This document shows positions 35,680 through 64,000 of a stretch of 64,000 nt of DNA, one piece after another. The stretch comes from Crambe crambe. Taxonomy: Eukaryota; Porifera; Demospongiae; Poecilosclerida; Crambeidae. The notes beneath the pieces were generated by a model. It ran no database searches. It was not told the DNA's origin and saw only the letters and a program-made list of their open reading frames with translations. The translations under genes and the position numbers were made by a program. Each line of letters begins with the position of its first letter. The stretch's first letter is position 1. The DNA lies in assembly GCA_963924555.1 (NCBI GenBank), contig OZ004591.1:7192001-7256000 (forward strand), given 5' to 3'.

Positions 35680-38600
35680 TTAGTTCTTCCTAGAAACTAC
35701 AACTATAACTCCAATTGCCACCATCATGGCCACTACACCGAGGACAAGTATGCCAGGAAAGATTCCCAGCAAAGGTAACTTCTCAGACTTCAGTGAAGAA
35801 GGTTCTTCTTTATTTGTGCTCTGGAGCTTGACAATATTTGGCTCTAAAGCTTCTGCAGGTGCACTCTGGACATGGCGTTTGAAAACGTGCTGTTTGACCA
35901 GGGCACTTCTCCTTCTTCTTCTGGCACTGTCCACACTCACCACTTCCTGAACAGATCCTCCTCCATCAGATAACTGCAGTAATTCAATCATGATATTCAT
36001 GGTGGACACATAGAGAGCACACAACATGCAGCATAAGGTGTGGATGTACTCACCTCCAACTCAATGGAATTGATGTTAGGGTCAGGTGCTCTATTCAAAT
36101 ACTCAATGCTGCGTAACACTTGCTGCACTTCTGATGGAGAGGCAGGACCCAAAATCTCCAACTGTCGTGCACTCACGTTGAAAGGTGTGGCCCTAAGTGG
36201 AGTGCCAATAGTGTTCAGAGTTATGGATTCTAAGCAATCCAGAATGCATCTTGAGAATGCAGGAGGGGCAGTGTTAGGGGCAATTATGGCTGATGAAACA
36301 GAGCCAGTAAAGTGAAGATCAAAGCCATTGGTCACTGCACGTGCTCCTAGGACAAATACAGCATCAGAACCAGGAGAAGGACCCTCCAAGTCATAAGACA
36401 GAGGAAGACCTGTAGAGATATATAATCCATGGTCAATATGTATTGTACACAGAATGAGACTACTTGGTGGCCACATGGCATGCATTCATGTAGCTAGCTA
36501 ATAGTTTACCAAAAACTTGTCCTATGAAGGGTTGATCCTTGTACACCACAGCCACACTGTTGACAAGTTGTCCATCAACTATGCACACCAAGTTATTAGC
36601 TGAGTATTGGAGCATGATCAAGTGAAAAGCTCCATCACTCAGAGATGTGGTCAGTTGGAAGTTGATACGAATCTGTCCTCTGAGCAAAGGTACTCCCTCT
36701 CTCTTCACTGTCACAATCAGCTGGTTGTTGCTGCGCCCATAATAGAGAGCAAAGTAGCGCTCGACAGAATCTGGAGTACCAAAATAAGCAATGTATCCTG
36801 AGCTTTCTGCCCTCACCCAAAAGATGAAAGTGAAAGTGCTGATACGGCCAGAGAAGCTGCTAAAGTCAGTATTAACCACAGCATAACTAGAGTTACGAAG
36901 GTGGAGAATTTCATTTTCATCTGCATCATTGCTCAGTGTATAAAATCCTCGAAGAGTATTTTCCAGGAGCACGATGCCATTGTTCAGCCCCCCACACACT
37001 AAGGTCATCTTGTCCACTACATTACGTTCATCCACACATACTCGGCCAGTGAAAGGTGAAGGAGAGAGGGGTACCCCACCCAAGATGGAGATGGTGATGG
37101 TCTCTATTGCACCCGTTATGTCTGGATCAGTCACTTCAATGGAGGCAAAGGGAGATATAGGCTGATTAGTAACCACTGTGATGTTAGTCAAACTGCTGAC
37201 AGAAGGACGCACATCGTTTAGGTCCAGGATAGTGATATTGACAATAGCTCTTCCAGTTCGAGCAGGGGGAAGTGCATCAGTAGCAAATACGTTGATAATC
37301 AAGGTGGAATTCGTTTCTCTGTCTACTGGCTCCACTAGAGACAAAAATCCAGTGGATTCATTAATCATCACACCTCGTCCATCTTCTACACTGTAAGTTA
37401 TTACATCTCCTCCACTCTCAACAGTTGCTTGCACCTGCAGAAAGTTTGCAAACGTCCTTTCCTCCGTTAGGTTAAGTCGATAAACAGACTCTGAGAACTG
37501 AGGAATACTTGCTAAGGAGACAGTGATATTCACTTCCGGGCTGCTAACACCACTTGCATCTCTCATAACAATGGCAACTGTTCGTACGTCTATAGGCTGA
37601 AGTATAAGGTCTCCAGCAACATAAAAGATATTCCTAAGAGCTTGAGTGAGGGAAGAAGGATCTCCAGGGCCTGACAGTCGATAGACCTTGTTGCTGGTCT
37701 CTACAAAGGAGTATCCAGGGACTTCATCCCATACAAGAGACTCGTTAGATCTGGCAGGAACGTTTCGGAGAGTGAGGAAAGCTGTAGGAATAGTATCGTT
37801 AAAGTCTGGATCAGAAATTGTAAATTGAGCCTCAAATAGCAAGTTTCTGCTGGCAGGTCCCACAAAAAGAGCAGGATTAGGAGGGTTAAAGGTCAGTGAA
37901 GGTGCTTCATTAACATTGTCCACATCGATCACAACCAATGCAACTCCTTCATTGACTCCATCACTTACAGTAACATTAAAAGAATAGGAGTTGGTCTCTT
38001 CAAAGTTCAGGAGAGTTCTTGTCAGAATGTGCACTGCACTTCCATCAGGTGAGAGTCGGAAGGAGGGCTCCTCTGCAGCATACCTGAAGGTGGTGCTTCC
38101 TACATCAGCATCAGAGGCACTGAGAGAGCCAACCGTTGAACTCTGAGGGCTGTCTTCTCTGATGTTGAACTGGTAAGTATCTCTGGAGAACATGGGATGA
38201 TTGTCATTATTGTCTCGTATCACAACAGTGATCGTAGCACTTGCACATGGCAAACTGAAATCACAGACTTGAATTGTGATCGTGCGAGCCAACAAAGAAG
38301 GTTCAGGTGCAAGATTGACATAAGAAATGGATCTCAAGTTAGATACCATGTCAGCGACACTGTTTTGGCCAAAGCGAAGAACATTACCACTTTGAGTCCC
38401 AGTAGTCAAAATGTTGTTGTCCAGTGTCCCCACTAGCTCAACTGTCATACTCAAAAGTTGACGATTGTCAGAATCAGTGATTTCAGCATCAGGAGCAATG
38501 CGCACCATGTTGTCACCGTCTTCAAATATCGTCTGATTTGATAGTGTTATCACTGGAGGATCGTTGTTGGGCATAAACTGGATCTGGACAGTTGCATTGC

Positions 38601-41600
38601 TGCTATTCAGTTGACCATCAGACACTTGTATAGTCACTGTTCTGATGAGAGATTCTATGGAAGAATCCAGGAACGGACTATCCGATGACTGGAATTCCAC
38701 ACTGGCAAGGACCGTCTGGTATCGCAAGAGAGAATCACGCCCACTCAAAGAGAGAACACCAGTACTTGCATCGTAGTTGCTAGAGATAGTTATAATCGCA
38801 TCTGAAACAGATAAAGTGTCAAATCTTGATGCTGGACTGGTTAGAGTGATAACAGCACCAACAAGTTCAACGTCATCAACGTCAGATACTGTGATATTTG
38901 GAGCCACAAGGATTCCTTCTGAACCCTCTTCGAACCTCACAACATCCATCAAGTTGGTTCCAACTGCAGTCAGGGACAGTGATGGTGGATCATTCAAAGA
39001 TGTCAAACTAACTCTACTGAAAGCTGCTACGAGGTTCCTACGACCTTCAGTATCAAAGGCAATGTATGAGATTTCTCTTTGGACTGATGTGGTCAAGTTG
39101 GCATTTAAATTGTTATAACGCACAGTCTGTAGCACACTGTCAAATTCCCTTGGGATGCCAGGTCCCACAATGTCCAGTGTGTAGCCGTCACCAGAGACAT
39201 TTACAGATACAAATTCTGAGGCAGTTGCATTGATGGTCTCACCGATATCTTGAGGGTTGGTCAATTGGACCCTGACATGGCTGAACGTGGGATCGATGAA
39301 ACCATCAATATTACGACGAATTGCTGCCCGAGGTGACACTAGTGTCGGCTCACTACCTTCTGAAAAAGTGGCGGAAGTGTCAATTTCTTGACTGGTGAAT
39401 CCATTGAGGTTTACAACAGGAAGACCATTGTCAGAATTGACCAGTCTGATCGAACCTCTTCTTGTCCCCACAATTCCAGTTTCCTCAGTGATGGTAAAAT
39501 CAAGTCTACGAGTGGGGTCACTGGGGTCAATGCTTGGCGAATCAAACTGGTTGGTGTAGTTTATAGACCTAAGGACAGTGATGATATCTCCATTAGGAAT
39601 TAAGTCAGAACTTCCAACTCCCCGAAGGAATATATTGTGCTGGTTGGTTAGAGTTGAAGAAGCAGAAATTGTTGAAGGAAGGGGAGGAAGAACAAGAGCT
39701 TCAAACCCACAGCTGCAGAAGTCAGTGATCTGAGAAAGAGAAAGAGCTGTCGGGTGGTAAAAGAGTCCATGAAGCTGTCCTGCTAACCTCCCGCCATTCA
39801 GAGGGTGTGGCCTGGATCCTCCAATGAACACGTTAATTGCAGAATTAGTCGTCAGAACGTCTCCTTCAAGATTCGCTTGAGCGAAAATCACACAATCAAT
39901 GTATACAGTGAAGGTAGCAGGGTTTGTACGGAAAACAAGAGTAAAGTGTCGAGTGCGAGGGTTGGTGGGATTGAAGAATTCGGTGAGAGAATCTGCACTT
40001 GTAAGTCTGATAGTGGTAACTCTTCGAGTTCTAGCTGCACCAGACAGATAATAAAGTCTGATATCTCTACGACGGATCCAGAAACCAAACTCCCTCTCAA
40101 CTGCAGAAGAAGGAAGAGATCTATCAGTCTGGTCTGGAATGAGAATCACAAATCCTTCAGATCTCTGTGTGAGAACGAAAGATATTGAAAACTCGCCGGC
40201 AGCAAAATCAGCTGGGAGTGAGTTACGTGGAATCTCTCCGAAACCATCAGTGGCAATGGTGGTTCCACGTTCTAGAGTGACGGCTGGACAGTTGGCACTG
40301 CCTATAGTTGTTCGACTGTTTCCCACACTGTTGAAAGTAGCAGCATTCAGGAGGTCAATGGCAGGAGGTAGCAAACCAGCTTCCTGGAGTCTAGCATCCT
40401 GGCACTGTACCAGACATTGATCATATGTTCTGCTGAGATCTTGCACACTTGCAGTGAGGCTGATACTGATGCTGCTGATGGCTGGAGGATCGAGATCCAG
40501 ATCTGTAATACGGATCGCAGGACCTATTGATGCGGGATTGCCACCAATCACATAGACTGCTGGAGTGAGCTGGTCTACTGTGGCTGCATTATCATTAGTG
40601 TCAATCAGACTGAAACTGACTGTGGTATAGCTGGCAAGGGGAGGGTTTCCTGAGTCAGAAGCAGAGACATTCAGAACATAAGTCTGTTGTTCTTCTGCAT
40701 CAAGAGTCACATAGTACTCTATCACTCCAGAATCTGGATCTATTCTGAACTTATCATTATCATTTTCCAGGCCATATCGGATCCTGGAAGCAGAAAGATC
40801 TCTGTCGATTGCACGAACCGTAAAGATTACATTTGGAGGAGTTAGTGCCTCTCTCTCAGGTTCTGCTACGAAAGGCATTGTTCCCAAGAATATTGGAGCC
40901 ATATCATTTGTGTCCTGGACAGTCACTGTGATCTCAATGCTTGCCGTCATTACCGGGTTTCCTTGATCTGAAGCTAACAAGGTCAGCACATGAGAGGCAT
41001 ATTGCTCCACATCCAGACCACTAGGTGCACTCAACAGACCAGAGGATGAATCGATGCTGAAGATACTCGTGGTCACATCTACACGGCTTCCTATTCTTGA
41101 GAGAACTTGCTCAATGCTGTACACAACAGTGCCTTCTCTGCCTGAGTCAGCATCAGTAGCTCGTAGTGTTGCTATAGTGATTGGATCAGTTGTTTCCACA
41201 AAGTCATAAGACGTCACACCTGGCACAAACACAGGAGCAAAGTTATTTGGTGGAGATATCGTTACATTCACACAGGAGAGAAGAGAAAATATCTTAAAGT
41301 CTCGCAGTTCTACACACACTTGTCTTGGTGGTAGAACAGTCAGATCTAAGGCTCGGTTGTTGTATCTGAGCTGTGATATGGTTTCAGTGACACGATTCAC
41401 ATCAGCCCCACCAGTGAAAGTCACAGTGTACAAAATCTGAGGACCAGGTAGATCAGTGGGCCCCACAGAAATTGAAGACTCTGGAAGTTGTCGTGCAAAC
41501 TCAATGATTTCATTTTCAGATCCATCTTGTGGGTTGGTGATGTAGATGCGAAGAATATCAAACAAAGAGTCATCAGAGTCATCAATCACAATGGTGGAAG

Positions 41601-44600
41601 AGTTGATGATGGGAGTGGGTGTGTTGCGTATGGAGACATCATCAAGTTGTCTAAAGGACACTGCAGGTCTATCATTTAGTCGAATGATGTTGATGAATGC
41701 AGTAGAAGGGACTGAAGAGGCAGGACCAATGCTCAACCCTCTTGCTGTGATGAATCCCGTGTCAATTGCCGTAAATGAGACAGATCTTCCACCTACTTCA
41801 TTAGGTTCATCTTCTCTGTTGCAGTAGATGAAGTTTCTTAATTCAGCTTCATAATTAGCTGGTGAATTCATACTGGGACCCAAGAAGAGAAGTACTCCAG
41901 TTGGAAGTTCGACAAAGCCAGACGGTCTGCTTCCATTGTAATCAATTCGCTCTAGCTGCCTATTGACATTGTTACCTGAAAGGTCGATCTGCACAAATTG
42001 GATTCCAGTTGAGTCAGGCTCAAACAGCCTCAGGTTGGGAGCTAAAGGAACACATGGCCCATCTTCTGTAAAATCGAGAGTGACGTCTCTGATGTTGGAA
42101 CCACCCAAGTAGAGTTCAGGAGGGTCATTCTCTGATGTTAGTGAGATAGTTACATAGGCAGGTGCACTGAAGGCTCCACCGTCATCCTGGACGACCACCA
42201 CCACTTGGCGCAGGTCAACATCTGAAGGAGTTTGCTCGGTGTTCACGTATTGTACAGATCGAAGGATGTCGAGCCAATCACTGAAGCTAGCCGTGTGTGT
42301 GATAGTCAGTGTTCCTGTTGATGGATTGAAGTTACTTGACGTGACTTGAACCCGTGATTGACCCAGACGCAGTGACTCTCTCAGTCCATCTGGTCTCAAG
42401 GTGAAGCTGATATTGGCCTGTGACAGTTGGGAGCTATCAGAGTCTATGATGGCCTGATTGGTACCCATGAGGATGTTGACAGACCCTCTATTCTCCATGA
42501 ATGCCACTGAAGAGTTGAGTGAGTTGGGGTTTGTAGTGTCCAGATCCAGGCTAGGTCTGTCATTAGTTGGTACAACAGTGATGGTGGAGATAGAGATAGG
42601 ATCGTTGGTATCTCCAGCTACATCTTCTACTCTGAATCGAATCACTGCATCAAATATCGTTTGCTCTTCTTGCATATTGATGTAGCGAACTTGATGAAGG
42701 AGACTGATGTATTCTTCAGGGAAGACTTGCTGCTGTGGGTTGACAGGAGTCACCAGCAATGTTCTGGAACCATTAGTAAGGAGAGTGTGTAGTGTTCTTG
42801 ATGTGGAAGGTACTTCCAGGATGTGCCCTCTATCTTGAATCAATGAAACCTGAATAGACGCAATTGGCCAGTAACCACTGTCCGAATCATAGAGGAATGC
42901 CTCTTCTCCAAGAATGGCAGTACTGGGGGAGGTTTCATCAGAGCTAGTTACAAAGTTGATGCCAGGAAGAGCAGTGCCATTCAAATCAAAGACAGGGCTA
43001 CGGTCATTGAGAAGGATTGGTCGAAGAATAACAACGGCAGGATTATCACTCACTCCCACATCATCATCAGCCACTACACGGAATCCTCGGTCCAATGGAT
43101 GTGGTTCACTCACCTGATTGGAGTAAGTGATGTTGGCCAGGGCCTCCTGTAAGGTGGCCAGAGATGCTTCAGGGGCAGTGCCACTGTACGTCAATGTGAC
43201 AGATCGCGTTCGAGAGTCCACTGTCACATTGATCCCTGGTGTGGGTGTGTCTATATCAAGACTCTCTCCACAACTGAGAGTGCAGCAGATATGAGAATTT
43301 GAAACTGTCACTAAACTGCAAAAGTAGAACTCAGAAATGAATACTCTACCCAATCCATTTCCAAAGAAGAAACTGCCAGCCATGAAGGTGGTACTGATGT
43401 CATTGTTATCTTCTCCTGAAGCAACTTCTATACAGTCAAAGTATATCATGAGAGCCATTTCATCGCGAATGAAGGCGATCTGGTGCCACTCCCCATCGAA
43501 TATCGGTAACGTTCCAGTAGAGATCAAGGTTTCAGAATCAGTAGGACTTGTGCGTATTATAATCCTCATAGAACCATCACCATCAACAAACATCTCAAAA
43601 ACATTATTCCCTGCACTTTGCACCTCATATATGTTTCCACTAGTTCTTGCAGGAAATTGGACCCAGAATGTGATGGTGAAAGTTACGAACTGCTGACCAT
43701 TCAAGAGTTGTACAGCATTCCTGGAAGTGCTACGCAGAACTGGAAGTTCCATAATGCCATTTTCCAACGCGCTACCATCACGAAGATCAAGTTGCCCTTC
43801 TCTGAGCAAGTAAAGGCAGCCATCTTGCCCACACAGGCTGTGAGAGTTGTTGTCGTACAAGAGGGAATAGTTGGCATGGTCACATATCCCTCCTGGATTG
43901 GGGTAGCCCCGTGATGAGGTTGGGTCCTGTTGCAAAGAGGCCACCACTTGAGTGAGAGGGAAGGTGGAGAGAGTATCACCATCGATTATCGTTAGATTAG
44001 CCCCAGGCAAGACCTCAGGACCTTCTTCCAGGAATTCCACCACCAGACCAGTGGCAGGTTCAATGGCAGGTCTTTCGTCATTATCATCGAGTATGCGGAT
44101 AGTTATGCTTGCAGATGCCTCAGAACCAGCAGGGTCTCTAGCAACTACAGAAAATTGATACAGATCGACTGATTCTCTGTCCAGTGGAATTGCAGTGGTG
44201 AAGAGTGCCCCCACATTGGAGAGGGGGACAATTCGGAAGGAAGTCTGTGGGGGTCTGAGAGAAAATGTTAGGTCTGCAAAGGGAGTGTCTGCATCTGTGA
44301 TATTTACAGAAAACACAAGGCGTTCAGTTCCAAATCCTTCACGTATGTCTGCACTGTAGCTGGTGGGGAAGAAGACTGGAGGCAGATCATCTACATCCGC
44401 CACTTGAATGGAGATTGTCCCAACTTCACTGCACTGCACAGGTGAGCCATTATCACAAGCTTGGTATGCAAAAGTGTATGAAGAAGTTTCTTCAAAGTTA
44501 ACTCTTTCTTCACGAAGGACCAAGTCACCATTGGACCGAAAGTAAAACAAGTCTGCTCCACTGCCAGAAAGATTGTAGTTAATGACTCCACTCTGACCTG

Positions 44601-47600
44601 CATCAAAGTCTATGGCAATGGCCCGTGCTATGACTGTATCAACAGGAGAATTTTCCATCAGCTGAGCAGAGATGTTCATTGGAGACAAACGGGGAACATT
44701 ATCGTTACTCTCATTCAAAGTCAACATCACAGTTGCACTGTCGTCTATTATTCCAGACATATTGACTCTGCCAACACCCAAAGTGATATTGAAGAAGGAA
44801 GTGTCCTCAAAGTCCAGATAGTTTGCTGGAGAAACCAATGTTCCATTGGGTCCCTCGCTGATAACTGTGAATCCAGGGTCATAGGGGACAACCAATACGA
44901 TGGAAAACTCAAAGACATCATTGAATTGGTTTATGTCTCTGTCCATGGCAGAGATCACGCCAATCTCATAGCTAAACCTGTTCTCGGCAATATTGAAAGT
45001 GTAAATTTGTCGAGGAAATTGTGGGCGGGAACTGATAACGAAGAATACGGCCAGTGTGGAGTTGGATCTCATAGGGACTCCACTATCTCTAGCAATAACA
45101 GTCACTGTCAGCATTTCAGCTGTGCTAGAAGTGATGAAGATGTTTCTTATCAAACTGATATCTCCAGTGGTTTCATTAATCTCGAATGTATCTGAAATTC
45201 CGTCCAGTGAATATCGCAGCAAGGCATTGATGCCTTCATCTGCATCTTCACCACGTGCTGTCCCTACGATTGTGCCTATTCTGGAACCATCTATAATGTC
45301 TCCCATGATGTCAGCGAGAGAAGGGTCATTGTCATTTATGTCTGTGAGCCTGATGGTGAGGGGTACTGACTGCTCCAATGGTTGACTGCTGCGATCACTT
45401 GCAGTAACAATTAAATCAACCTGAGGACTGCCGCCTGTCATAGGATCACGATCCAGTCCATCCAAGTTCCTCAACACACCATTATCATCAACATCAAATC
45501 TTGCATCATTCACAGAATATGTGAGATTGGCATTGATACCAGCATCAATGTCTCTGAAAACCAGCACTGTTTCAAAGATGAACTCCTCTCTGAAGGTGAA
45601 TGTGTCGTCTCCCTGATATTCTGGTGGGTTGTCATTGACATCCAGCAGAGTTACAACAAGAGTTTGGGTGTCCATGTTGAGTCCATCTGAAACTTGGACC
45701 ATTAAGCTGTAGTCTTGTTGCTGTTCACGGTCCAAAGCTCTGCTGGTGGTGATTGCACCAGTCATGCTGTCAATAGTGAAGTTTCCTCCAGCATCATCAA
45801 GCAGAGAGTACGAAGGTACATTGAATGGAGGCAAGTCGATGTCTTGAGACGTAACTCTTATAACGAGTTCATTAGGCAGATTTTCCACCACAGTTGCCAA
45901 GTTACTGGATGTGATTTCTGGAATGTGGTCATTCTCATTGACGACATTCGCTGTAAAGGTAGTTATGTTGAGCAACTGTGGAGAACCACGATCAGAGACC
46001 ACAATCTCGAAGGAGTAGGTCTGGATTGTCTCATAGTCCAGGGAGAGACAAACAGCAATGCACCCTGTGGACTCATTGATGGAAAAGGGAGTGGTGAAGG
46101 TGCAGTCATCCACTGTAGATGCAAAGCGATATTCCAGCACAGCATTCTGACCAGAATCTGCATCATCAGCATCTACACATCCTACAATGCTGTCCACTGC
46201 AGTCAGTTCACTCACAGAAAAGTTGGTTGGTGGATTGACAACTGGAGCATTGTCATTAATGTCCCTGATCAAGAAGACCACTGGACAGGTAGTGCACAGG
46301 GGCATTGGTCGACCACCATCACACACTGTAAAGTTCACCTCGTAACTCATTTGTCGCTCGTAATCAAAAGGAGTGCATATAGAAATGGCACCAGAGTCAG
46401 GATCGATGCTAAATGGTTCTTCTTGGGAGCAGAGAGGGTCACCCATGGGGGATTCAGGAGGGAAGAACATGATGCCTTGGTTTCCATTCATTCCTGAGTC
46501 GATGTCTTCTGCTGATAGCTGGGCGAGTCTACTATTGATGGGAGAATCTTCAGGCAGTATGAAGGAAGCACTTCCAGTACAGTTTGGAAAGTTGTCATTT
46601 GTGTCATTAACACTAACCAAAAGTGTGAAGTTAGCAGTCTGTGTTTGATCGTCGGCAGCTGCAGGTGGATTGGTAGCTCTGATAGCGAGCATGTAGTTTC
46701 TTACGTTCAAGGGAGGGTCATAGTCAATGGCTTCACTGTCCCTCACCACCACATAGCGTCCTTGAATGGTAAAAGGCGAGTTTGGAGTGACAATGGAGTA
46801 ACTGACGTTAGAGTTGGCAAGAGTGTCTTCATCTGTGGAGTTGAGCTCATACACTATCATGCCCACACTTGAGTGCTCAGAAATCTCTGCAGAATCCATC
46901 CTGTCAGGGACAAAGATTGGAGGATTATCATTGCGATCGACTATGTTAATCACCAGGGCAACATCCACAGTTTGAGTCACATCGTCAGAAAAGTGTGGTG
47001 GATTTTCACCACGAATGTTTATTATAAATGCTCTGATGGGTCCTTCAAAATCCAACTGAGTGCTGTCTCCATCAAATAAAACTTCATTTCCAACTATGAC
47101 GAATGGCAAGTTAGTATTCAACGAGGAGTATGCGATGATGGAGTTGTTTTGTGAGTCGCCGTCTGTTGAAGTGATGAGGTCTACTCGTGTCCTGTTGGGG
47201 CTAAGCTCATTGAGGTTGGCAACGAAGGGATCTTCATCAAATATGGGAGCATTATCATTCAGGTCAATGATATTCACTGTAAACGTTCTATTTGAACAAA
47301 TGGGGGGATCTGTCAGGTCACACACGATTACCAGGAACCTGTAGGTCCTCAAAGATTCATAGTCCAAGGGTTGACAGGTTGTCACCTCACCTGAAGTGGT
47401 ATTAATCATGAAAGGAATATCCTGAGAACAAGATTGATCTGCACCGGCCATACTGATGAAGAAGTTTAGTTGACCACCAATTCCAGTATCAGAGTCCCTG
47501 GCGTTCACACGACCGATGCTTGTACCTGCAGGTTGATTCTCACGGACCTCCAGAGCAAATGGCTCCATGATGGTAGGAGCATTGTCGTTGACATCCAGTA

Positions 47601-50600
47601 CAGAGATGAGGACAGTGGTGTTGGCTAATTGAATATCGTCACCGACCACAGCAGGGGAATTGAGAGCCTGAACAGTAACCACATACATGGTAGTATCACT
47701 TTCAAAGTTGATCTGCTCAGGATTTTCCACAAAGACTTCCACACTACTGCCATTGCCTCCACGGAGACCAAATGGAGAGGGTTGAGGTGAGATTATGTTG
47801 AATGTGCTTTGAGAGTTAGGTGGTGAGTCGCGATCAAACACTGTTACTATCACCACTTGAGACATCATCAGTGAAGAATCAGTCTCAAAGACCCTAGCGG
47901 TGTAAGAGTCAGCATCAAAGACTGGGGGGTTGTCGTTTCTGTCAAGCACTCTTACTGAGATCTGCATAGTGCTGGACATTGGCACAGCTGCACTGTCACG
48001 AACTTGCACATCAAAGGTATAGACCTGTTGTGCTTCGTAATCAAGACCTTGGCATTGGATGATATTAGCAGTTGTGTCATTAATCTTAACGGCAAAGAAA
48101 GGAACTGCCTCTGAGCACTGACTCATTGTACTTCCATTCACCACAGAAAACACCAGGAGACTGTTTAGACCACTATCAATGTCATTAGCCGTCACTGATC
48201 CCACAATGGCCCCAGCAGCTTCATTCTCACCAATGGAGAAATCAAAATTTTGACCAGGAGGGAAGAAAGGAGTGTTGTCATTTGAATCGACTACATTCAC
48301 TGTGATTGTTTGGTCTACTGTATAGGTCACTGGTCTATTGGTGCCATTCAGTCCAGAATCAATCACCCGAACTCTGATGTCAAACACAGTACGATCCTCT
48401 TCAAAATTTACTGGTTCGCAAAAAGAGAGGTCTCCAGTTATTCGACCAAGATTGATAGGCAGGTAGTCAGGATGTGTACGTCCAACAGAAGTGAGGCACC
48501 CACTAGATAGTGGAGGATCTGTGAAGGACATCACTCGATATACTCTAGTCCCATTGATATCAGGATCGGTTACATTCACTTGGCCAAATACTTCATTAAA
48601 TCTTTGTGTCATTTCTTCAGTCACATTGAAGACAAAAGGCTGCACTATTTGTGGTGGGTTATCATCGATATCATAGATGGGAATGTTGATGGTGATGGGT
48701 GTGGAGCGAATGTTACCACTGAGATCTCCACCATCACTGACAAGGATGACCAGTGAATACAGACTTTCCACTTCACGGTCAATACGTTCAGAGATGACCA
48801 GTTCCCCAGACAGTGAGTTGAGAGAGAAAGGAACATCAGATGTGCCTAAAGAGTAGGTGAGGATTCCACCTGCACCTCCATCAGCATCTGAGGATATGCT
48901 GCTGAAGTTAAAGACAGATATTCCAATACATGTAGTCCTTCCACAGGCTTCTTCATGATAGCCTGTATGGTTGACAGATTCAGAGGTGACTTCAGGATCA
49001 AACTCATTGACAAGGTCCAGTGTTATTGTGACATTTTCACTTGTTGACTGTTGCATTGAGCTACCAGGACCGGGAGGATTAGTAGCCACAAGTGTTATCA
49101 CAAATACCATATCCCTCTCAATGGAAGTAAGGAGCGATGCATTACACACTACAATGTTCATGTCATCCGTAGCGAGGCAAAATGGGGTACCAGTGAGACC
49201 CTGAGCTGAATATTGAACTACACTGTTTGCCTGGGAGTCACGATCTTCTGATGAAAATGATAAAATTATAAAGCCATTGATAGCTGTCTCCTCCACAGAA
49301 ACGTTATATGGGGTATTCAGGAACACAGGTGGATTGTCATTTCTGTCCAAGATAGTGATTGTGACCATGGCTGAAGCCAGCATTGCACTCATGCCAGGAC
49401 CTGGACTATCACTGACTGTAATTTGGAAGGTGTAGCGGGTGGTTCTTTCGTAGTCAAGATCACCCACGACCACGAGAGCACCATTGGATTCGACCATGAA
49501 AGGCAGAGCAGGAGTGCCAGGGGATAGGGAGTAAATAAAACCACGGTTCATTGCATCGTTGTCAGTGGCCACAAAGGTGGTGATGGTGGTGGTGCGAGGA
49601 GTGTCTTCAGATACAGAAAAAGCATAAGGTGACCCAACAAACATTGGTGGCAGTTCATTCACATCTATGATATTGAAAGTGACATTCGCAAATGCTGACA
49701 TTGGAGGGAACAAGTTCCTCACACTGAAAGCCTCAACCACAGCAGAATAGTTTGAGCTTCTCTCCGAATCCAGATTGGAATTGACTGATATCACTCCTGT
49801 TGTGGAATCAATTATGAAAGGGTCGGGGTTCTCTCTGAGTCCAGTCCTATCTGACAGTATTTCAATGAAACGATACCTTATGAAGGTAGTATCACCTTCA
49901 CCATCAACTTCAAAGGCAGAGAGACTGGGTTGTAAGGGAGTTCCCACTGCAGTATTCTCTCTTACCATGAACGGAGAGAAAGGATTGAAGGCTAGCTGAG
50001 TTGCAGCAGGTGTGATGACCATGACATTGATGACTGTATGAGTGGAGAGGAAAGGGTCTCCACGATCCATAATGATCATCACTAGCAGATAGTAGTCCAC
50101 CAAAGTCCGGTTGAGAGCGACACGAGTGGTGACAAGGCCATTGCTGTCCACTTGGAAGTTTTCCGATCCAATACCCAAAAGGAGGTAAGTCAGAATTGCA
50201 TTGTCTCCCTCATCTGCATCAGTGGCTATCACTTGAACCACTCTGGCTCCTGGCATGCCTTCAGTCACATTGACGGTGTAGGAATCAGCAGTCGTGGGAT
50301 GATTATCATTCACATCAATCACATTAGCTGTCAGCTGAGCTCTGGCTATAGCGTTCAGAGGTGACGTCCTTATTCTTGCAGTTATGGTCAAATTGTACCC
50401 GGAAATCACTTCACGGTCCACTCTATTGTTCAAGAAGATGACTCCATCATCTCTCAAATCAAATGGCATGTTAATGTTTCCCTGTGAAATATTGTAGATC
50501 ACATCGCTAGGGGGAGGGACAGTACCATCACGAAGTCTCACTCGCAAGGTGTACAAGTTGCATGTGCGGTTAGGCCTCTCATCCTCATAAACAATGAAGA

Positions 50601-53600: not shown

Positions 53601-56600
53601 CAAAAACTTCAACAGTTGCATTGCCATCCTCTAGAGAGAAAGATGTGTCGTTTGAGAGAGTCGTGTCTATATTCCTGCTGCCAAATGGAACGCCATTGCT
53701 GGCATCCCAACCCCTGAACACAAGAACGACTCTTCCATTCAAGTTATGGATGGGAACCCACCTAATCAAATTATAAGGTCCTAGCACGACAGCCGATTCT
53801 CTGGTCACTATATCAATATTCTGATAAATAATAACAAAAGAGGGTATGGTCGTCACCACAGTGGTCCTATCGGAGAGTGTGGCTATCAGTGTAGAGATAC
53901 TTAGAGTGAAGTTAGAGAATTGTTCAGAAGAAATGAACACATACTCACGTACGATACCAAGGTTGAGATTTGTTGAAATGTCAACTGCACTTCCTCCACC
54001 AAAATTTATTTCAAGTGTTGTTATAGTTGAGAATTCTGGCAAGGATGTCTGGACCAGCTGTTGGAGAGGAGACGAACAAGTGCAGAATTTAGCATTCCTG
54101 CCATTAACACAAGCAAAAATAATAGCTGAAGATGAAGCTACACATGTTACCACACTCGGTGGTGGACATTCACAGAAATCTGTACCATCAAGTTGTCCAC
54201 CTCCACAGCCACTCTCCCCCATACTTGAAATGTTGTCGTAGGCACTGCGACATTGAAGGTCGTCCATTAGCGTGCCAAACTGACCAGTAGCAGGACCTCC
54301 CTGACCAATGATGGCTATTCCTGTCACACTGTTTCTGTCTGTGTCCACAATAGCATTTCCAAACACATCAATCACAAATGAACCATGATTATCCGAGAGA
54401 GGAAAGTCTTCAGAAATAGGTGGAAACTCGACAAGAAAGTCAACCAGCACAGGCCTATCATTAGTTTCAATGAGATCTACTGCTACTTCACTAGAAATCA
54501 ACTGCAAACAAGAAATGAGCAAGAGCTGAGCATCACTATCGGGAAGGTCACTATCAGATGCTGTGGCATTGAAAGCTCTCTGAGTGTCAGATGTGAGCAA
54601 GGAGAGTACAGATCCATCCCCAAGCATGTCGCACACACCATAAGAGATAGTTCTGGACAGAGGCTGTTGAAAGAGAATAGCTGAATTGTCATATGTGATA
54701 TTGCTTAGAATGTCAGTATACAGGTCAGGGGGCCCAGGTCCGACTATGATCAAGGTAAAGTTATGGTAGCCAATTTTGAATCCCCTGGGCAGAGATATGG
54801 AAGGAAGCCCCAGTACTTCAGTATCTCCATCTAAAGGATTGACTATAGTGACGACCGCATAGAGCTGTGGATGATCATTGCTATCAGCATCAGAGACACT
54901 GACTGAAGCTGGAACTACTGGTCCAAAGTCTTCAATGAAGCCATTCCTAGAGGTTGCCTGAATGGTGGGGCGGTTATCATTCACATCATTGATGGTAACC
55001 ATTACGCTAGCTGTCCCCACACGTGGTACAATGCTGCTATCACGTGCATTTATTTCAAAAGTAAATATCACGTCTCCACTTTCAAAGTCAAAAACTCTGT
55101 TAGTTGAAATGTTCCCTACTGAAGGATCGAATATTATAAAGTCAGGAGAGGTGGGAACAATGCTGTAGCGCAATAAAGCATTGAGACCGACATCTTGGTC
55201 AGTGAATACAGCTGTCAAAACATATGTATTAATTGGCAAACCTTCATCCACAGAACCAGCGAAAGTAGTCATAGACGGAATGGGGTCATTATCATTCTCA
55301 TCCAGTACCTGGATCATGACTACTAGACTTGCATTGAACTGTCCATCAGCTACAGACACCACCAAGGTGAACTCTGAATTTCCAATGTCCCTGTCCACTT
55401 CTCTGACTAAACTCAGGTTACCATTGGAACGGTCGATGCTGAAGAATCCTTGCTCATTACCACTGACAATTGAATAGCTCAGAGCCGTATTGCTAAGTCC
55501 ATCGGGATCTGTCACTGAAATACCAAAGCGACCAAAAGTGACTTCAGCATTATCTCCCACCTCAGAGTCGCATATGCCAGCAGAAAATGAAGGAACTGGA
55601 CACTCAGAGCCGATTTGGCAGCTGGGTTCACCTAACCTGACATAAACAGCTCCACCCACAGAGAGTGTGTCTGATGGAAGCAAAGCTGACCCTGTGGTGG
55701 GGGAGGAGAGTGGACCATACAGCACACCACAAGGACCATTATTGCCATGGTAAAAGAAGAGTCGGGTCAGACCCACAGTGGTCGAGAGGGCAGACACACT
55801 GAAGCCACCATTAACAGTACTGCAGTTATGAAAGTCTGCCAACACATCGTAAGAAGTATCAACAGTGAAACGCTGTCCACTTGCGAGCGAGCAAGCTAAT
55901 TGTCCATCGAAGGTCAGTCCATTGAGTGCCCGAACATATGCACTGCTCTGAAATGTAATATGGCGACTAGAAACATTTACTTCCAGCTGGTTAAAAGTGG
56001 TTGAGAGAGTCAAATACCTGCAAAATAAAAGATGATGTTGGTAGCTTACATGTGTGGCTACTGGAGGAGCAAAATTTGATCAAATGTTTAATTCGGTCTT
56101 GCGAAAAATTTGACCATTTCCCCAAGTTGATAAGTTCATGAAAAATGGCTTTCACAGGATGACAAAGTTCAACTATTGCAGTGGGTGTGGTCAAACCATC
56201 ATGATCAAGTCTTACCTTTGGAATGTATCATCCGTTGGGTCAAGATTGAAGGCCCCTAATATGTCACTGCGGTAATCGTCTGATAGAGGAATGGTTAGGT
56301 TGACAGGGAGAACTTGTGCAACTGCTCCCTCCAATGTCTCCATTAAGACAGGAGTGGCAGTACTGTCTACACAGCTATCTCCATTCATGTATACAACCGT
56401 GGAGAGAGACAGTGTCTGATTCTCATAAATCATCAAGTACTGGCAAAGAAGGACTTGCGTATCGATATCGGTGAGCGAAGGCTCTCTCACTTGTCGTAAG
56501 TACAAGCCAGGAAATACTGAAAAAGGAAATAAATCATTAATTTTTAGCATGATAATTGAGCTACTTAATACTTACACGATATGTTCCAAGCAGTCCTTGC

Positions 56601-59600
56601 ATATGTTAGAATCTGTTCTCCAGGGCGTATTGACTCTGGGATGAAGGCAAAGTAGACATCTGGATCTGGTACTGGTGGGAATTCGTTGATGTCTTCAATT
56701 GTTATAGTGACAAGAGCAGTGTGTACAAGAGTTACATCACCCAGTGGAGGATTATCCTGCACCAGCACGGTGAAAACATACTGAGCAGCATCTTCTCTGT
56801 TCAAGACTCGCAACTTTGTGATAGCACCAGTGTCACGATCGATGTCAAAAGTATTGCTTGGCGGAGCATTCCGAGCTGAGAAAGAATAGATTAGCCTGTT
56901 ATTACCATTTGGATTGCCATCAGGATCCAGTCCATAGTCCAGATCTGTGGCACTGACATTGAGCACTATTGATCCACTTGGACTATTTTCTAATATCCTC
57001 CCAGTGTATTCATTTCGATCAAAAATGGGAGGGATATCATTAGCATCCTCAATAATTATGGTTGTGTTGGCAAAGACCATGGCGGCTTCAGGGTATCTAG
57101 AATCAGTGTTGACATCAACCAGCTGCAAAGTGACCTCAAATACCCTTGGGGCTACATCAGCATCAAGAGGCTCACGAACAGACAGTATTCCAGAACCAGG
57201 AGTCAAAAGAAACTGCGAAGGAGCTGGTGGAACAAAGGACACACTGAGAAGGGTACCCACAATGTTGTCTGGATCAGATGTGCTGATTCTCATGATGGTG
57301 TCTCTGACTTGAGTCAGCTCACTAACTACGATGCGATCAGGAAGATTGTCAAATCGAGGAGGCTCATCATTGATATTGCTGACCTGGATGATCACTTCAA
57401 CGTCTGATGATCTGGGCTCTGATGTAAAGTCATTGTCGTTAGCCATCACAACTATAACAAACCTTGAAAACATCTCAAAATCTATAGGCAACAGTTGCGT
57501 GATCTCTCCAGAAGTAGAATTAATAGAGAAATATGGCAAGACTGAGGGGGGCCCAATACTATAAGTAATTCTGCTGATAAACTGAGAGTTCTCTTGGATG
57601 TCAGGCTGTTCATCCAGGTCTGTAGCTGTGACTTGCAGCAAAGGTTGTCCGTCAGGTTCTGCATTTTCTTCCACACTGGCAATGTAATTGGCTCGTTCAA
57701 ATATAGGGGCATGTTCATTTTGTCCTTGGATTATTACTGTGATATTTCTAGAAGTGGACTGAGTAGAGTCACTGGCTGTGATGGTGGCAGAGAATTGCAC
57801 ACCTATCGTTTCTCGGTCAATATTGTCCACAACTGTCAAAGTTCCGGTGATAGAATCGATAGTGATCAGAGCACTCCCTTCAAATTCGTTTCCTTGAATG
57901 GTATAACGTATCTGATCCAGACCATCGGGATCTACTGCAGTACAGCTAGGAGGAAAGAGTGGTGCTGAAAATCTTTCATTTTCAACGACAGAGAAAGTCG
58001 GTGGACAGTTGTTGAATTCTGGGGGGATGTTAGGGAGATTGATCACTCTGATAGTTATGTTAGCTCTGGCAGTTCTGCTAGAGGATCGTGCCATTATGAC
58101 CAGACGATAGACCTCAACACGCATAAAGTCAATAGTGCCAGCAACAATGATCTCTCCTTGAGAACTGTTTGTAGGACTGTTACGAATGCGGAAGTCACTG
58201 AACCCAAGTGCAGGTTCAGCAGCAAATATGTTAAACTGCAGAACATCTGGTCCTTGGGGAAGATCAGCGTCAATGACAGTGACAGTGCCAACCAGAACCA
58301 TAGACGGGGAGTCTTCCATAACGCTAAATTCATACACATTACTGGGGGAAAATGCCGGGTCATTATCATCTACTGGAGTGATGCTAACAATTGTGGAGAC
58401 AGGGATGTTGGTGCCACCTCTGACATCAGTTATTACAAAATCAACTATTCTGGATGTGATATTAGCAATCTCATCTGCTGTGTTTTCATACATAACTGAC
58501 ATGACAATGGCCTGATAAGTTCCCAAACTAGCTGTTCCTGTCACAATGAGGCGAGGGTATGTGTATGAGAATGTCAGGGGACCTGATATCAGTGATTGGT
58601 TGAGAGTAAGGACATCTTCCGGTCCACTTCCCTCTCTGATGGTGACTTCAAGACGTTGAAAGACTGTAGAGTCTACATCTGTGATGATAGGAAACCTTGA
58701 GAGACTGACGCTATTGCCATTTTCCACATATGATGTGGAATAATCCAAAGCAGGAGACATGGAGTCCAAGTCCAGTGAAGGGGGGTCATTGGTGGAATTG
58801 AAAGAAATGGTTGTGATGGCGACATTGGACACGAGCATGTCATCATCAGACACATACACTTCAATGAGTCTCTGGGTTTCGTCAGGATTGTTACTAGTAT
58901 TGTTATACTCGATCATGCCCAGAGCAATCATGTAACTGGCTATATCAAGATTTCCCACGATTTGAATCACGTGAGGTGAGGTAGTAGCTGCCAATGAGAG
59001 TCCATTGGGAAGGGAGCCTCTCACAACAATCATTTCTCTATTGGAGTCTAGGGGATTGGTCAAGTTGCAGGTCAGAGAGAGGAGATTTTGACTGTCTTCA
59101 TCTGTGATATTGTAATTGCCTGTGTTAACAATGCTGGTCCCCCTACTTCCTTCTGTAAAGCGAGTGATGAAATTGAGACCAGCTTGACTTGTATCCAAAT
59201 CTACCAATGGTGGATCATTGACAACCTGAAACTCAACGAAGGCTTCTGAGATATTGCTTGCAAATCTAGAATCAAACACAGAGAATAAGAGAGTTCTGGA
59301 CAGTGGACCACGCAGACAAGGATACAAGCTACTTTGGCATTCACTCAACTCGTCTTCAGTGTTGCTATAAAGTACGCTTTGTAGAAGACTGTGGATATCG
59401 TCCGAACTGGCCACATTTTGAGGGAAGATAATGAGTTGACCTGGGTTGGAGCGAGTAGTGTGTGGGGGAGTATCAGGGTTGGTGGACACAGAGAGGACTT
59501 CGCTGCTTGGGTTTCCAGAATTAGCTACACTAACTCTGATCTCTGTGATGGTAAGAGCCAACTCATCAGGATCAGTGACATTTGGATCAGTGACTATCCT

Positions 59601-62600
59601 GACAGGATTTCCCTCTTCAGTGAACGTGAATGGTGTCAGTGCATCTTGTGAGTCTGAATCTGTGACATTGAGGTCAAGGACTGGAGGATCGTTGTTTATA
59701 GCAATGACGTTGACTAGCACTGTAGCAGTGTCATTACTACCACGAGGGTCAGTCACAATAGCCTCAAATCTGTAGAGAATGGCTTCAGCACGATTACTGG
59801 AAAAAAGAATGGACACGTTTCCACTAGTTTCATTCACCTCAAAGAGAGAAGACAGAGAAGACTGAGAATATTCTAAAGTTGAGCTGTCTCTATCAGTGGC
59901 TTGGACTCTACCTATGCTCAGAGGGAAGGTATTTTCTTCTTCTACAGTGAAGATGTAAGAATCCATGCTGAATTCTGGAGGAAAGTCGTCTATGTTATTC
60001 ACCGTTACAGTGATGGCAGCTCGACCACTCAAACTAGGCACTCCAGCATCATAAGCTATCACTTGAAAATCACAAGTACTTGCCATTTCGAAGTCAAGAC
60101 CGCTCGTAGAAAGAATAATCGTGTTTTCTGGACCTCTCCGGACACTGAAACGATCAAAACATCCTGTTCTCGTAGAAAAACTGTCTGGATCTATTTCTAC
60201 ACGAGCCAACTCAGAGTTTGATCCTTCATCAATGTCAGAGATGACAAGGACAGGGGAAATATCTGTTGCTACATTCTCATCCAAGTTGAAGCTGTATGAT
60301 GATGAGTTGAACACTGGAGGGTTGTCATTGACATCCTCTATGAGTACAGTGAGATTGAACTGACAGCATCTCTGAGGTGTTCCACTATCACATGCTTCCA
60401 CTCCCAATAAGTACTCTGGGACAACTTCACGATTCAATGAATCTCCAATCAGACGCACCAAACCACCTGGAGTCACTTCAAAAAGTGATGATACTCCCTC
60501 CACAAGCTGATAGCTCAGGACCCCATCCACTCCCCTGTCTGGATCAGTGGCTTCCAATTGAATAATTTCATAACCATCAGTTGAATTTTCTGAGACATTG
60601 ATGGGATTGATGGCAGGACATTCTGGTTGATTGTCATTCACGCCTAAGATGGTAATATTGCACACTGCTGTGTCATTGGGAGCTCCACCTCCAGGAATCA
60701 CCAAGAAGTCGACAAATCTATTGATGAGGATTGGTTCAGGTTCCTCATTACTATACTGGATCCTGCGGACAGCTTCTAGATATTGAGAGATGTCGGCAGT
60801 CTGACTAAAAGTGACTCTCTTCAGAGCAGTATTGATCTCGATAGATATGTCCAGACCTGTAGTACGAGTCACGCTAATCCTCTCTTCGTCTTCAGCGACA
60901 CCATCTGGCAGGACATCACGAATACTGACCACTATGGACTCAAGTGTGTTTATGGAAGTGTCGACTGCTCTCACCAATGAGTGGCAAAAAATGGGCTCTG
61001 CTTGAGCCTCTGTGAAAGTGGTGCTAAAATTTTGTGATGGGGCAGCAAGTTCAATGATCACTCGAGGATTCGCTGGAATGAAGTCTATGACGACATTTAT
61101 GTCTTGGTTACTAGAGGCCACACCATCACTTATGTTGATAAATACTGTACGATCCCTAAGGCTGGGCAGGTCAGTGGATTGTTGGAGATTGACATATCGC
61201 AGGGTCCTCAGAATGTCCTGATAGTCAGGTTGATCTCCAATGCCTCTGATGGATAACACTGTCCCATTGCATGCAGCAGGTACGCAAGTTAGACCAGTGC
61301 CCATGAATAGAGACATGTCAAAAGCAATACTTTCATTTCCAGTATCAAAAATTCTATCAATTCTGGCATCAGCTTGAACTAGTTGAAAGCTGTCGGGATC
61401 GTTTATGAGGAGATTCCTTACTAGAGCAATTGGAGGGCTTGATTCTACGTATCTGACTTGCTGGTTGAGGCCACCAAGATTGCCATTGAGGTCCAGTATT
61501 GGTACGTCATTGATGGTCAATATATCTATTGTAGTGACAGCACGTGGGTTGTTGCTACGGAGACCATCATAAACAGTGAATTCTATGATGCGATCGACAT
61601 CCGTAGGTTCATTTGCTGTATTGGAATAGCGTAAATTCAGCAGAACTGTGATGAATATGTTTGCTGTTGCTCTCAGAGGATCCACAGAATTGATGAAGAT
61701 GACTTGTGAGGTACTACCTGCTTGCAAAGCCTGTCCATTACTGCCTGTGACATTCACCAAATTGGGGGGGTTGTCCAGAAGTCTGAGGGTTTCTGCCTGA
61801 CCATTTTGGGGGTTAGTTAGGTTCACTGTCACACTCACTATCACCGAGTCAAGGTCAGTATCAGTGATAAAAGATCGAGGGGACAGGATGCCTACTTCTC
61901 CATCAACGTCTTCTCTAAAGTCAACAGAAAAGTTGATACCAGCAACCAAATCTCCATTGGCATCCAACAGAGGATCATTTTGATTTGAACGACCAATCAG
62001 ATTAATTATAGCCACGTTGCCAAGACCTCTTTCGTCATTGATGCGTAGACTGATGACTCTTCTCTCGCCACTTTCTTCAGGTTGCAGAAAGCCATTGCTA
62101 AAGTAGACAAGAGACTGAAGGAATTCAGTGTATCCAGCAGCATCGGTTCTCCCAGTGAAGTCAAAGACTCGTGTCACTGGATTGTAGAAAGTGATGAAGT
62201 TTGAGAAAGATCGCCTAGGATCCACACCTATCATGTTATTACAAGATGCTAGGCAGGCATACAAATTGTTGTTGACAACACTGGAGAGCACAAGTTGCCT
62301 CATTTCTCCAAACAGCGTAAATCTAGTTCCCCTGATGGAGCCACCGATACGAGCAACAATACTGTTGATCTGTGCGTCAGTTTTGGTTAGAATGGGTGCA
62401 GGCATGGAGTAATTCACTCCCGATACCTGATTCAACAAAATTCTGGTGTCAAATTGACTCCGGTAGTTTCCTCTAGTTGGTTGGTATTCCACACCATCTA
62501 TTAGAAGAGTCATCGAGGGGTAGCTTACTGTCAGAGATAGAAAGTGCCACAGATTATCACGAAGTCCATTGGGTAAATGTGTTCTGTCGTAGTAAAAACT

Positions 62601-64000
62601 GAGGGCCACCTGAGTATCATAGCCATCGTCATTTACAACTGCAATATTTGGCAATGCATCTCTGAAGTAGTACACAGTCATACGTGCAGTGCTACTTTCA
62701 TAAAGAGAAAAGTAGCGGTTGTTTCCAAGTTCAAAGGATGCAATATAAGAAGCATCTGAATCACTCTCAACTCTCAACCAAAAGGATAAACTGAATTGGT
62801 CGGTGGTCCGTAGGAATGTAGATTTGAGACTATCAGGGATAGTGAGCCAATTGTTGGCAAGACTGTTTAAGCCATTGAAAGAATAGACAGTGAAGTTTAA
62901 GCTCGGAACACGCGAAGGCCCATTGGTTGTTGCAGAAGTGGCTGAATCAAAAAAATTCTCTCGAAAGGTGAAATTACTTGCACCACAAAGTTGGAAAACA
63001 TCCCTGCATTCGGTGTTAGTGCATTCACAAACGCCATATTGATTAGGAAACGTCTCAACCTGCAAAGTTTGAGAGAAACAGACCATGAAATATTGCACCA
63101 GATATATCATCTATGGCTAGTTATCAATTTACCAGTGGTCCTCGAGTCACTGTGAGTGTGGCAACACCATCCTGTAGAAATTGACTGTCTGAGTCACTGA
63201 CCATTAATTGACCACCTGAGCCTTCAGTGAGAAACACTTGTCTCTGCCTGACGTCCAGGTCTATCAGAATAGTCTTGGTAGCTGGACTGATGACTGGTCG
63301 GTTATCTGGTATGTCGATTACTCTCACCTGTACAGTGGCAGTGTCAGTAAACATTCCATCAGTAGCTTGCACTTGAAAACTGTATGCTTGAATGGATTCA
63401 AAGTCCAAGCCAGGGTCTTGCACTGTAATGATTCCTGTTCCTCGATTCAGTTGAAAGTTTTGTACAATTTCGCTGCTGGGATTAACGATTTCAAAGAAAA
63501 CGATTCCAAGAGTATTAGTATTAGGTTCCTGATCCTCATCAGTAGCAGATATGGTTCCCACTTCGACATTAGCAACTCCTTCAGTGACACTGAAGTTGTA
63601 AATTCTGGCAGTGAAACGAGGAGGGTTATCATTGACGTTATTCACAGTGATCGCCAAGGTGGTTTCTGATGTCATGGGTGATATGGGATCTCTGTCTGCC
63701 ACTATTATAACCAGATCAAAACGCCTTTGGGATGGTGTCTCATAGTCCAAGCTGCTGGGATCCAGTACAGTTACAAGTCCATCGGATGACACAGAAAATA
63801 CGGAAGATGCAGTTTGGAAGGAATAAGTAACACCTTGACCTTCAGGGTCTGTTGCATTCAATTGTGTGACAGATGCACCCGTTTGAGCATTTTCATTGAC
63901 TGATGCAGGGATTCTTAACTCCACTGATGGAGGCAGCCGGTTGCTTGGCACGAGTAGTAAGCGGGCAGTTGCTGGCTCACTGGAAACATTACCACTTGCA
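35680..64000 (-). CDS. Giant cadherin / calsyntenin-like / LamG single-pass receptor (3' part; 5' end outside window)
   Basis: Six exons read on the minus strand: >63133-64000, 56576-63059, 56216-56516, 36510-56017, 36054-36409 and 35680-35973, giving 9,269 residues in the window. The 36510-56017 exon is 19,508 bp with no stop. Two repeat types alternate. Cadherin repeats (about 110 residues; DxNDNPP linkers, DxD and LDRE/LDYE motifs) form blocks, the longest about 20 in a row (44050-50640). The other type (about 130 residues; FTEG/FxED start, DxD, then VLRSIxYxN...R.I.F.V.D) resembles the calsyntenin sandwich. Four of these hold an inserted LamG domain. A cysteine-containing stretch of some 250 residues (about 55540-56600) fits neither. 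The C-terminus has SARRRRRSALV, a convertase-type site, then one helix (LVLGVVAMMVAIGVIVVV) and the tail SRKN. Extracellular adhesion is the likely role. No catenin-binding tail, phosphatase or hedge domain is seen, so it is neither a classical cadherin nor the visible part of a lefftyrin. Confidence 0.9.
36230..37047 (-). other. LamG/LNS domain 4 of the giant receptor
   Basis: From GRVCVDERN to RCILDC, spanning the 100-bp intron at 36410-36509. Core FTFIFWVRAESSGYIAYFG and AFHLIMLQYSANNLVCIVDG. The host repeat resumes with VLRSIEYLNR and is the last before the membrane. Confidence 0.82.
39700..40430 (-). other. LamG/LNS domain 3 of the giant receptor
   Basis: From YDQCLVQCQDARL to FCSCGFEAL. 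Core FSISFVLTQRSEGFVI and RHFTLVFRTNPATFTVYID. The host repeat resumes with VLRSINYTNQ. Confidence 0.82.
43260..43905 (-). other. LamG/LNS domain 2 of the giant receptor
   Basis: From GGICDHANYSLL to CCTLSCGES. Core FTITFWVQFPARTSGNIYEV and GEWHQIAFIRDEMALMIYFD. The host repeat resumes with LQEALANITYSNQ. Confidence 0.82.
62235..63040 (-). other. LamG/LNS domain 1 of the giant receptor
   Basis: Starts after a Cys-rich lead (GVCECTNTECRDVFQLC). Core strands are FSLSFWLRVESDSDASY and LWHFLSLTVSYPSMTLLIDG; it closes at ACLASC. Flanking halves of one calsyntenin-like repeat (LTEGSGGQLMVSDSDS before, EFLQSLVYFSNG after) show that it is inserted into that repeat. Confidence 0.8.

Follow-up and report, generated by a model that had tools for sequence, protein, structure and literature searches.

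Nested LNS modules akin to part of calsyntenin in a giant predicted adhesion protein of the sponge Crambe crambe

What kind of protein is encoded by the very long gene on the minus strand of a 64,000-nucleotide stretch of the Crambe crambe genome (assembly GCA_963924555.1, contig OZ004591.1, positions 7,192,001 to 7,256,000; here, the window), and is it kin to the calsyntenins, which act at synapses in animals that have a nervous system? An earlier note, made from the letters of this DNA alone, had described one minus-strand gene of at least 27.8 kb of coding sequence and more than 9,200 residues, in which cadherin blocks are interleaved with a second repeat, and had proposed that it is a greatly expanded relative of the calsyntenin layout. 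Here, we establish the gene, its repeat content, the nesting of its domains, and its kinship in sequence. We consider it probable that the gene encodes a giant adhesion protein, a chain of cadherins and second repeats (rep2) that carries four modules, each an LNS domain nested within a rep2 and homologous to a region of calsyntenin, and that rep2 itself is shared with bacteria.

Two stop-to-stop frames, of 6,539 and 2,181 codons, lie on the minus strand of the window, together with a frame of 291 codons that is open at the window edge. Our spliced model comprises six exons (28,266 nucleotides including the stop codon; 9,421 residues; end at 35680), in agreement with the single gene claimed earlier. 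The GT/AG splice sites were picked by eye, and reading phases match at the five junctions. The ATG lies at 64455, 455 nucleotides outside the window, and exon 1 was completed with upstream contig DNA. The N terminus, MAQLSPGKVVLLGILLLVAVKQGVEA, resembles a signal peptide (hydropathy 1.95). In a 19-residue scan, a C-terminal helix gave the strongest hydropathy peak by far (3.23, 22 residues from the C terminus), and five internal peaks of 1.52 to 1.90 fell within repeats or Cys-containing inserts. No clear internal membrane helix was seen, though the highest internal peak lies near the signal-peptide value. The gene is thus predicted to encode a single-pass type I adhesion protein with a signal peptide at its N terminus and, at the other end, one helix and a four-residue tail. 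The pattern R-x-[KR]-R occurs in two places in the protein, of which RRRRR is one. The parts of the gene, with positions numbered from the first letter of the window, are as follows.

35680..64000, minus strand: gene within the window (spliced model; coding sequence goes on to 64455)
63133..64000 (to 64455), minus strand: exon 1, with signal peptide, partial rep2, and two cadherins
56576..63059, minus strand: exon 2 (spliced model)
56216..56516, minus strand: exon 3 (spliced model)
36510..56017, minus strand: exon 4, 19,508 nt (spliced model)
36054..36409, minus strand: exon 5 (spliced model)
35680..35973, minus strand: exon 6, with the stop codon (spliced model)
35908..35922, minus strand: polybasic RRRRR, candidate furin-type cleavage site (motif R-x-[KR]-R)
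35695..35772, minus strand: transmembrane helix, then the tail SRKN (hydropathy peak 3.23; limits set by eye)
35561..35566, minus strand: AATAAA, candidate polyadenylation signal (raw sequence)

Repeat content was mapped with two bootstrapped profiles, one for cadherins (24 seeds) and one for rep2 (12 seeds, rebuilt later on 20 window and 25 paralog units). Training of both drew in part on the giant gene, so that the Pfam cadherin matches, and not the map counts, are independent of it. In the final nonoverlapping map, blocks of cadherins (36 in all) alternate with blocks of rep2 (25 segments). The rep2 segments comprise 20 near-complete copies, four C-terminal halves behind inserts, and one partial N-terminal copy; a degenerate copy brings the number to 26. 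Pfam Cadherin (PF00028) yielded 8, 13, and 11 stretches in three large coding pieces and 2 in exon 1 (E = 1e-24 to 1.5e-135 across the four pieces, two of which share a 100-residue overlap; exons 5 and 6 were covered in part), and Laminin_G_3 exceeded its cut-off in one large coding piece. All four loose calcium-motif patterns were present in 20 of 37 cadherin segments. The rep2 profile matched throughout the interleaved blocks, bearing out the signature L-x2-[IV]-x-Y-x-N that had been read from the sequence.

Structure prediction of single repeats, a check that the earlier note had proposed, gave a strand sandwich for the rep2 unit at 42121-42552 (AlphaFold2; mean predicted local distance difference test [pLDDT] of 90.1), with the L-x2-V part of the signature on a helix and Y-x-N on the following strand. 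Despite its cadherin-like ends, we rejected rep2 as an ordinary cadherin on the strength of its own profile and the extra helix. Sequence searches of the PDB with rep2 found no significant relative. When the model was compared with the PDB by Foldseek, 1 of 1,781 matches reached E ≤ 0.001 (template modeling [TM] score 0.47), and the others were cadherin-, cohesin-, and adhesin-like sandwiches with low TM scores. Among viral models, the best match was the uncultured phage protein A0A6J5RVH2 (TM score 0.71); tblastn of one rep2 unit against phages gave no match.

Four rep2 copies of the giant gene are opened by an insert after profile position ~47 to 50. In an excision test, the rep2 halves on either side of the insert were cut by eye and scored with a rep2 profile built from uninterrupted units only; in the controls, the N-half was replaced by a random cadherin stretch or by its own shuffle (300 draws each). 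Rejoining the halves raised the rep2 score in all seven modules scored (gain of 7.8 to 24.2 bits): the four in the window, two in a paralog on sequence C19 of the same genome, and one in human calsyntenin-1. In the lines below, the controls are given as the draws out of 300.

61974..63279, minus strand: nested module 1, rep2 N-half, LNS (~62241-62999), rep2 C-half, interrupted by intron 1; joined 36.3 versus C-half 25.8 bits (gain 10.5; cadherin 4/300, shuffle 2/300); Laminin_G_3 25.3 bits alone, 29.2 with neighbors (cut-off 27.6)
43003..44073, minus strand: nested module 2, rep2 N-half, LNS (~43270-43851), rep2 C-half; joined 62.6 versus 43.2 bits (gain 19.4; cadherin 0/300, shuffle 0/300); Laminin_G_3 44.9 bits
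39430..40590, minus strand: nested module 3, rep2 N-half, LNS-like insert (~39706-40425), rep2 C-half; joined 42.4 versus 18.2 bits (gain 24.2; cadherin 0/300, shuffle 0/300)
35926..37209, minus strand: nested module 4, membrane proximal, rep2 N-half, LNS (from ~37044; split by intron 4), rep2 C-half; joined 55.2 versus 41.7 bits (gain 13.5; cadherin 2/300, shuffle 0/300); Laminin_G_3 29.4 bits

The two C19 modules scored 32.7 joined versus 24.7 bits and 46.9 versus 39.1 bits (cadherin 2/300 and 4/300; shuffles 0/300 in both), and the calsyntenin-1 module scored 30.4 versus 18.4 bits (cadherin 3/300, shuffle 0/300). Judged by profile scores, the inserted domain is clearly an LNS in modules 1, 2, and 4 and weakly LNS-like in module 3; with a leave-one-out LNS profile, the five LNS domains other than that of module 3 reached 8.6 to 20.2 bits (0/300 shuffles).

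The same nested module is found in calsyntenin-1, where a further rep2 follows it. Our human calsyntenin-1 query, a reconstructed sequence, matched Pfam CLSTN_C at 709.5 bits over all 354 positions, which validates its C-terminal part. A rep2 profile built solely from the source genome detected calsyntenin-1 residues 570-624 (12.7 bits) and 717-814 (21.8 bits), compared to a maximum of 6.1 bits among 1,001 controls. A four-unit module profile scored 27.8 bits (best control 3.8), and a six-unit module profile aligned residues 282-624 in one piece at 56.8 bits (best control 5.4). The best PDB chains for the six-unit profile were neurexin-1-alpha (66 bits, a sum over several LNS domains), an S-layer protein (28.5 bits), and laminin alpha-1 (25.7 bits); neurexin and laminin share the LNS fold by profile, but these matches span the LNS part only, with no nesting in rep2 there. 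Cys motifs lie on either side of the LNS: ahead of it, CDRLDYHLKIKLEQCG on C19, CDHANYSLLYDNNSHSLCG in module 2, and CDRDTYSEKSLHRLCG in calsyntenin-1, and past it, C-x2-x-C-x-[EGN], matching in calsyntenin-1 and the sponge modules. In addition, CLSTN_C matched the open reading frame of a paralog on C6 (32.7 bits versus a cut-off of 27; E = 4.8e-8). These comparisons support the proposed kinship between rep2 and the calsyntenin sandwich and sharpen it, in that the giant-gene module appears homologous to the calsyntenin region between cadherin 2 and the membrane. The likeness to the calsyntenins (CLSTN1-3, CASY-1) extends to the order of parts, in which cadherins precede an LNS-bearing sandwich of the rep2 type, close to the sole membrane helix. 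A calsyntenin contains two cadherins and a single LNS (PMC9064300), and its tail is longer; the giant protein has 36 cadherins, four modules, ~26 rep2 copies, and the tail SRKN.

At least four further loci of the genome use the same parts as the giant gene. One rep2 unit matched at least 22 places in the genome at E ≤ 0.01, including at least 8 in the giant gene, at least 5 on C20 near 5.09 Mb, at least 6 on C6, and at least 3 on C20 near 1.94 Mb. All of the paralogs on C6, C19, and C20 are giant reading frames with rep2, and C19 shares the LNS-in-rep2 module as well. In the C20 frame near 5.09 Mb, cadherin blocks alternate with three blocks of five rep2. The C19 paralog is part of a 9,990-codon frame (up to 4037135), and its fetched part (4,045 residues) carries 29 cadherins, two LNS-in-rep2 modules, and a weak rep2, then RQKR and a membrane helix with a short stretch after it; this ending of cadherins, module, module, rep2, and membrane appears to be the closest to the calsyntenin layout. 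The C6 paralog (C6:275003-293983; 6,327 residues) is rep2 rich, with a membrane helix and a longer tail. It differs from the giant gene in having almost no cadherin, bacterial-type Cadherin_4/5 and Big_9 repeats with GSGS linkers, and two P-domain-like inserts at the same rep2 site (one a Pfam P_proprotein match, the other recognized by eye; joined 79.3 versus C-half 52.7 bits, 0/300 controls). Because C6 bears a P-domain rather than an LNS there, the site seems to accept different domains.

Lysine is nearly absent from the giant protein, which has 25 lysines in 9,421 residues (16 in residues 28-9340) versus 476 arginines. The 6,113 residues fetched of the C20 paralog include 6 lysines and one tryptophan. 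Lysine makes up 3.3 to 8.6% of four other open reading frames in the window; C6 (0.79%) and C19 (1.88%) are less extreme.

Rep2 also occurs in bacteria. One C20 rep2 unit matched 10 plasmid records, 7 of which cover at least 80% of the unit. Ten copies at eight loci (2 plasmid records and 6 genome-contig loci of Nostoc, Cylindrospermum, and Hydrogenophaga; partial loci, two longest open reading frames scanned at each) scored 62.6 to 97.4 bits, all uninterrupted, and these loci also hold two weak C-terminal rep2 fragments. Like the sponge genes, these bacterial giant adhesins (annotated as tandem-95 or DUF4347) carry rep2 beside cadherin-like repeats; they differ in having one or two strong rep2 copies per frame, no long rep2 blocks, and no interruption.

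The rest of the giant gene, outside the four modules, is arranged as follows (final profile map unless another source is given).

63940-64245, minus strand: partial N-terminal rep2
63295-63888, minus strand: two cadherins in exon 1
60630..61949, minus strand: rep2 block, 3 copies
59682..60587, minus strand: cadherin block, 3 repeats (Pfam and profile map)
58362..59645, minus strand: rep2 block, 3 copies
56673..58310, minus strand: cadherin block, 5 repeats (Pfam and profile map)
55531..56672, minus strand: region without recognized family, residues 2571-2865, exons 2-4 (Pfam scan; no match within residues 2571-2870 at E ≤ 10)
54967..55530, minus strand: cadherin block, 2 repeats
54568..54963, minus strand: rep2, 1 copy
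53566..54567, minus strand: region without recognized family, residues 3187-3520 (no credible Pfam match); its end, IRWVPIHNLNGRVVLVFRGWD, resembles by eye the Cadherin_5-type repeats of the C6 paralog
51361..53565, minus strand: rep2 block, 5 copies
50623..51357, minus strand: degenerate rep2 with a Cys-bearing insert (joined halves 18.7 bits versus C-half alone 8.5; controls reaching this, 0/300)
44068..50568, minus strand: cadherin block, 20 repeats (Pfam and profile map)
41242..42984, minus strand: rep2 block, 4 copies (copy 42121-42552 modeled)
40585..41190, minus strand: cadherin block, 2 repeats
38200..39408, minus strand: rep2 block, 3 copies
37900..38151, minus strand: cadherin, 1 repeat
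37504..37863, minus strand: rep2, 1 copy
37204..37410, minus strand: cadherin, 1 repeat (profile positions 21-91)

Several observations weigh against our interpretation. The calsyntenin-1 query was a reconstructed sequence (978 residues versus an expected 981). The Pfam search suggested in the earlier note found Cadherin and Laminin_G_3 in the giant gene; CLSTN_C reached only 16 bits there (exon 2; E = 0.0058; cut-off 27), was not matched in the four nested modules, and gave no match (E ≤ 10) in any of 20 rep2 units scanned singly. LNS domains taken alone showed no preference (20.1 bits for calsyntenin-1, 19.7 for a single neurexin LNS). The module 3 insert had no Pfam match and was weak as an LNS (3.3 bits with the leave-one-out profile; 1/300 shuffles equal), the terminal rep2 of C19 was also weak (12.5 bits), and the structure model of a nested module was poor (pLDDT 37.9) and was not used. 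At least one calcium pattern was missing in 17 of the 37 cadherin segments, and two regions of ~300 residues lack an assigned family. The idea of a calsyntenin-related layout is borne out in part: the nested module aligns with calsyntenin-1 as a whole, the CLSTN_C score of the giant gene stays below the cut-off, and the LNS by itself favors neither calsyntenin-1 nor neurexin.

The similar LNS scores would also be expected if this were a Fat/Dachsous-like large cadherin into which rep2 and LNS had been shuffled independently, with the calsyntenin likeness reflecting common domains only. Cadherins, LNS, and rep2 are all widespread, and the P-domain at the same rep2 site on C6 points the same way. 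However, the insertion site and the order of parts are the same in calsyntenin-1 and the sponge genes, the Cys motifs match, and the whole-module match to calsyntenin-1 (56.8 bits) exceeds that of the best single-domain PDB chain (28.5 bits), so we regard independent shuffling as unlikely. Fat and Dachsous combine a large cadherin array with EGF and LamG domains near the membrane and a long tail; this layout was rejected for the giant protein, which showed no EGF in Pfam scans and ends in a tail of four residues. We also considered that the long reading frames are separate transcripts of two or more genes, given that the model comes from DNA alone with splice sites picked by eye. This is quite improbable in view of the matching phases at five junctions, the single signal peptide and single strong membrane helix, and the 19.5 kb of coding sequence within one exon.

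Least credible of all is that the giant gene is the sponge calsyntenin orthologue in the strict sense, even though the nested module and its membrane-proximal place are held in common. A genome search using the part of calsyntenin-1 that follows cadherin 2 returned its sole scored candidate in the giant gene (62235-62570; E = 0.064), and a search with CLSTN_C returned one scored candidate outside it (E = 2.83); both searches were insensitive, missing the C6 CLSTN_C match. Calsyntenin tails carry an acidic stretch and WDDS-type motifs, which are absent from the giant protein. There is also no rep2 between its last module and the membrane, whereas C19 has one. Strict membership was thus rejected on the tail, the cadherin number, and the subthreshold CLSTN_C score.

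Tandem PF00028 repeats place the giant protein in the cadherin superfamily; a catenin-binding tail of the classical cadherin kind is absent from its four-residue end. The domain set of lefftyrin, coherin, and hedgling includes cohesin, FN3, EGF, VWA, hedgehog, and phosphatase domains, none of which matched when most of the protein was scanned with Pfam at E ≤ 1 and selected pieces at E ≤ 10. The giant protein resembles these large cadherin-bearing surface proteins of early animals, described from sponges and choanoflagellates (PMC6030884), but lacks matches to their characteristic domains, consistent with the earlier view that it is not one of the named sponge types. The literature that we searched contained no work linking sponge cadherins with calsyntenin.

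Returning to the interpretation of a giant adhesion protein with calsyntenin-like modules, we can suggest how it might work. Calcium confers rigidity on cadherin arrays, and the ligands of LNS domains include both proteins and glycans. A calcium-stiffened rod of cadherins and rep2 would extend far from the cell, and the LNS modules near both ends may bind proteins or glycans on other cells or the matrix, the remaining repeats serving as a spacer. By analogy with Caenorhabditis elegans CASY-1, in which axon fasciculation requires the LNS region and the cadherins are dispensable (PMC5619950), binding would likely fall to the tip-proximal and membrane-proximal modules. Processing is suggested by polybasic sites ahead of the membrane in three genes (RRRRR here, RQKR on C19, and RRRR/RVRR on C6), and cleavage at RRRRR may free the rod. 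Signaling by its own tail would be unlikely, since only four residues lie inside the cell.

Elsewhere in the window, a soluble guanylate cyclase gene (33196-35484, plus strand; HNOBA 158 bits, cyclase domain) is convergent with the giant gene, the stop codons lying ~200 nucleotides apart. A reduced folate carrier (22427-23416, plus strand; 304 bits) and a frame with many (P)SGPQVDPSLP-type units (30613-31332, minus strand; no Pfam family) are also present. On C15, a degenerate form of CGASYAF, the silicatein active site, occurred in six places (872-885 kb; none for the reversed pattern), arranged as three tandem pairs of such motifs within a cluster of cathepsin-like genes (C15:872855-884857); Peptidase_C1 matches, among those listed, enclose three of these places. 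The motifs point to a genome that is probably that of a siliceous demosponge.

Rep2 is common to animal and bacterial adhesins, and the units tested reached no Pfam model of its own. Since a sibling gene bears P-domains at the same position, the rep2 loop may be a reusable socket. We tentatively propose, while leaning against it at present, that calsyntenin arose by the trimming of a giant preneural adhesin, in which an LNS was inserted into a sandwich shared with, and perhaps acquired from, bacteria, and whose module later became synaptic. If calsyntenin does hold its LNS inside a cadherin-like sandwich, with another sandwich behind it, the limits of the constructs used to study binding or deletions would have to be reconsidered, and whole modules could serve to retest the conflicting reports on the neurexin-binding part. 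With several giant genes of the same module in one demosponge, an origin of this synaptic adhesion module before neurons would become directly testable.

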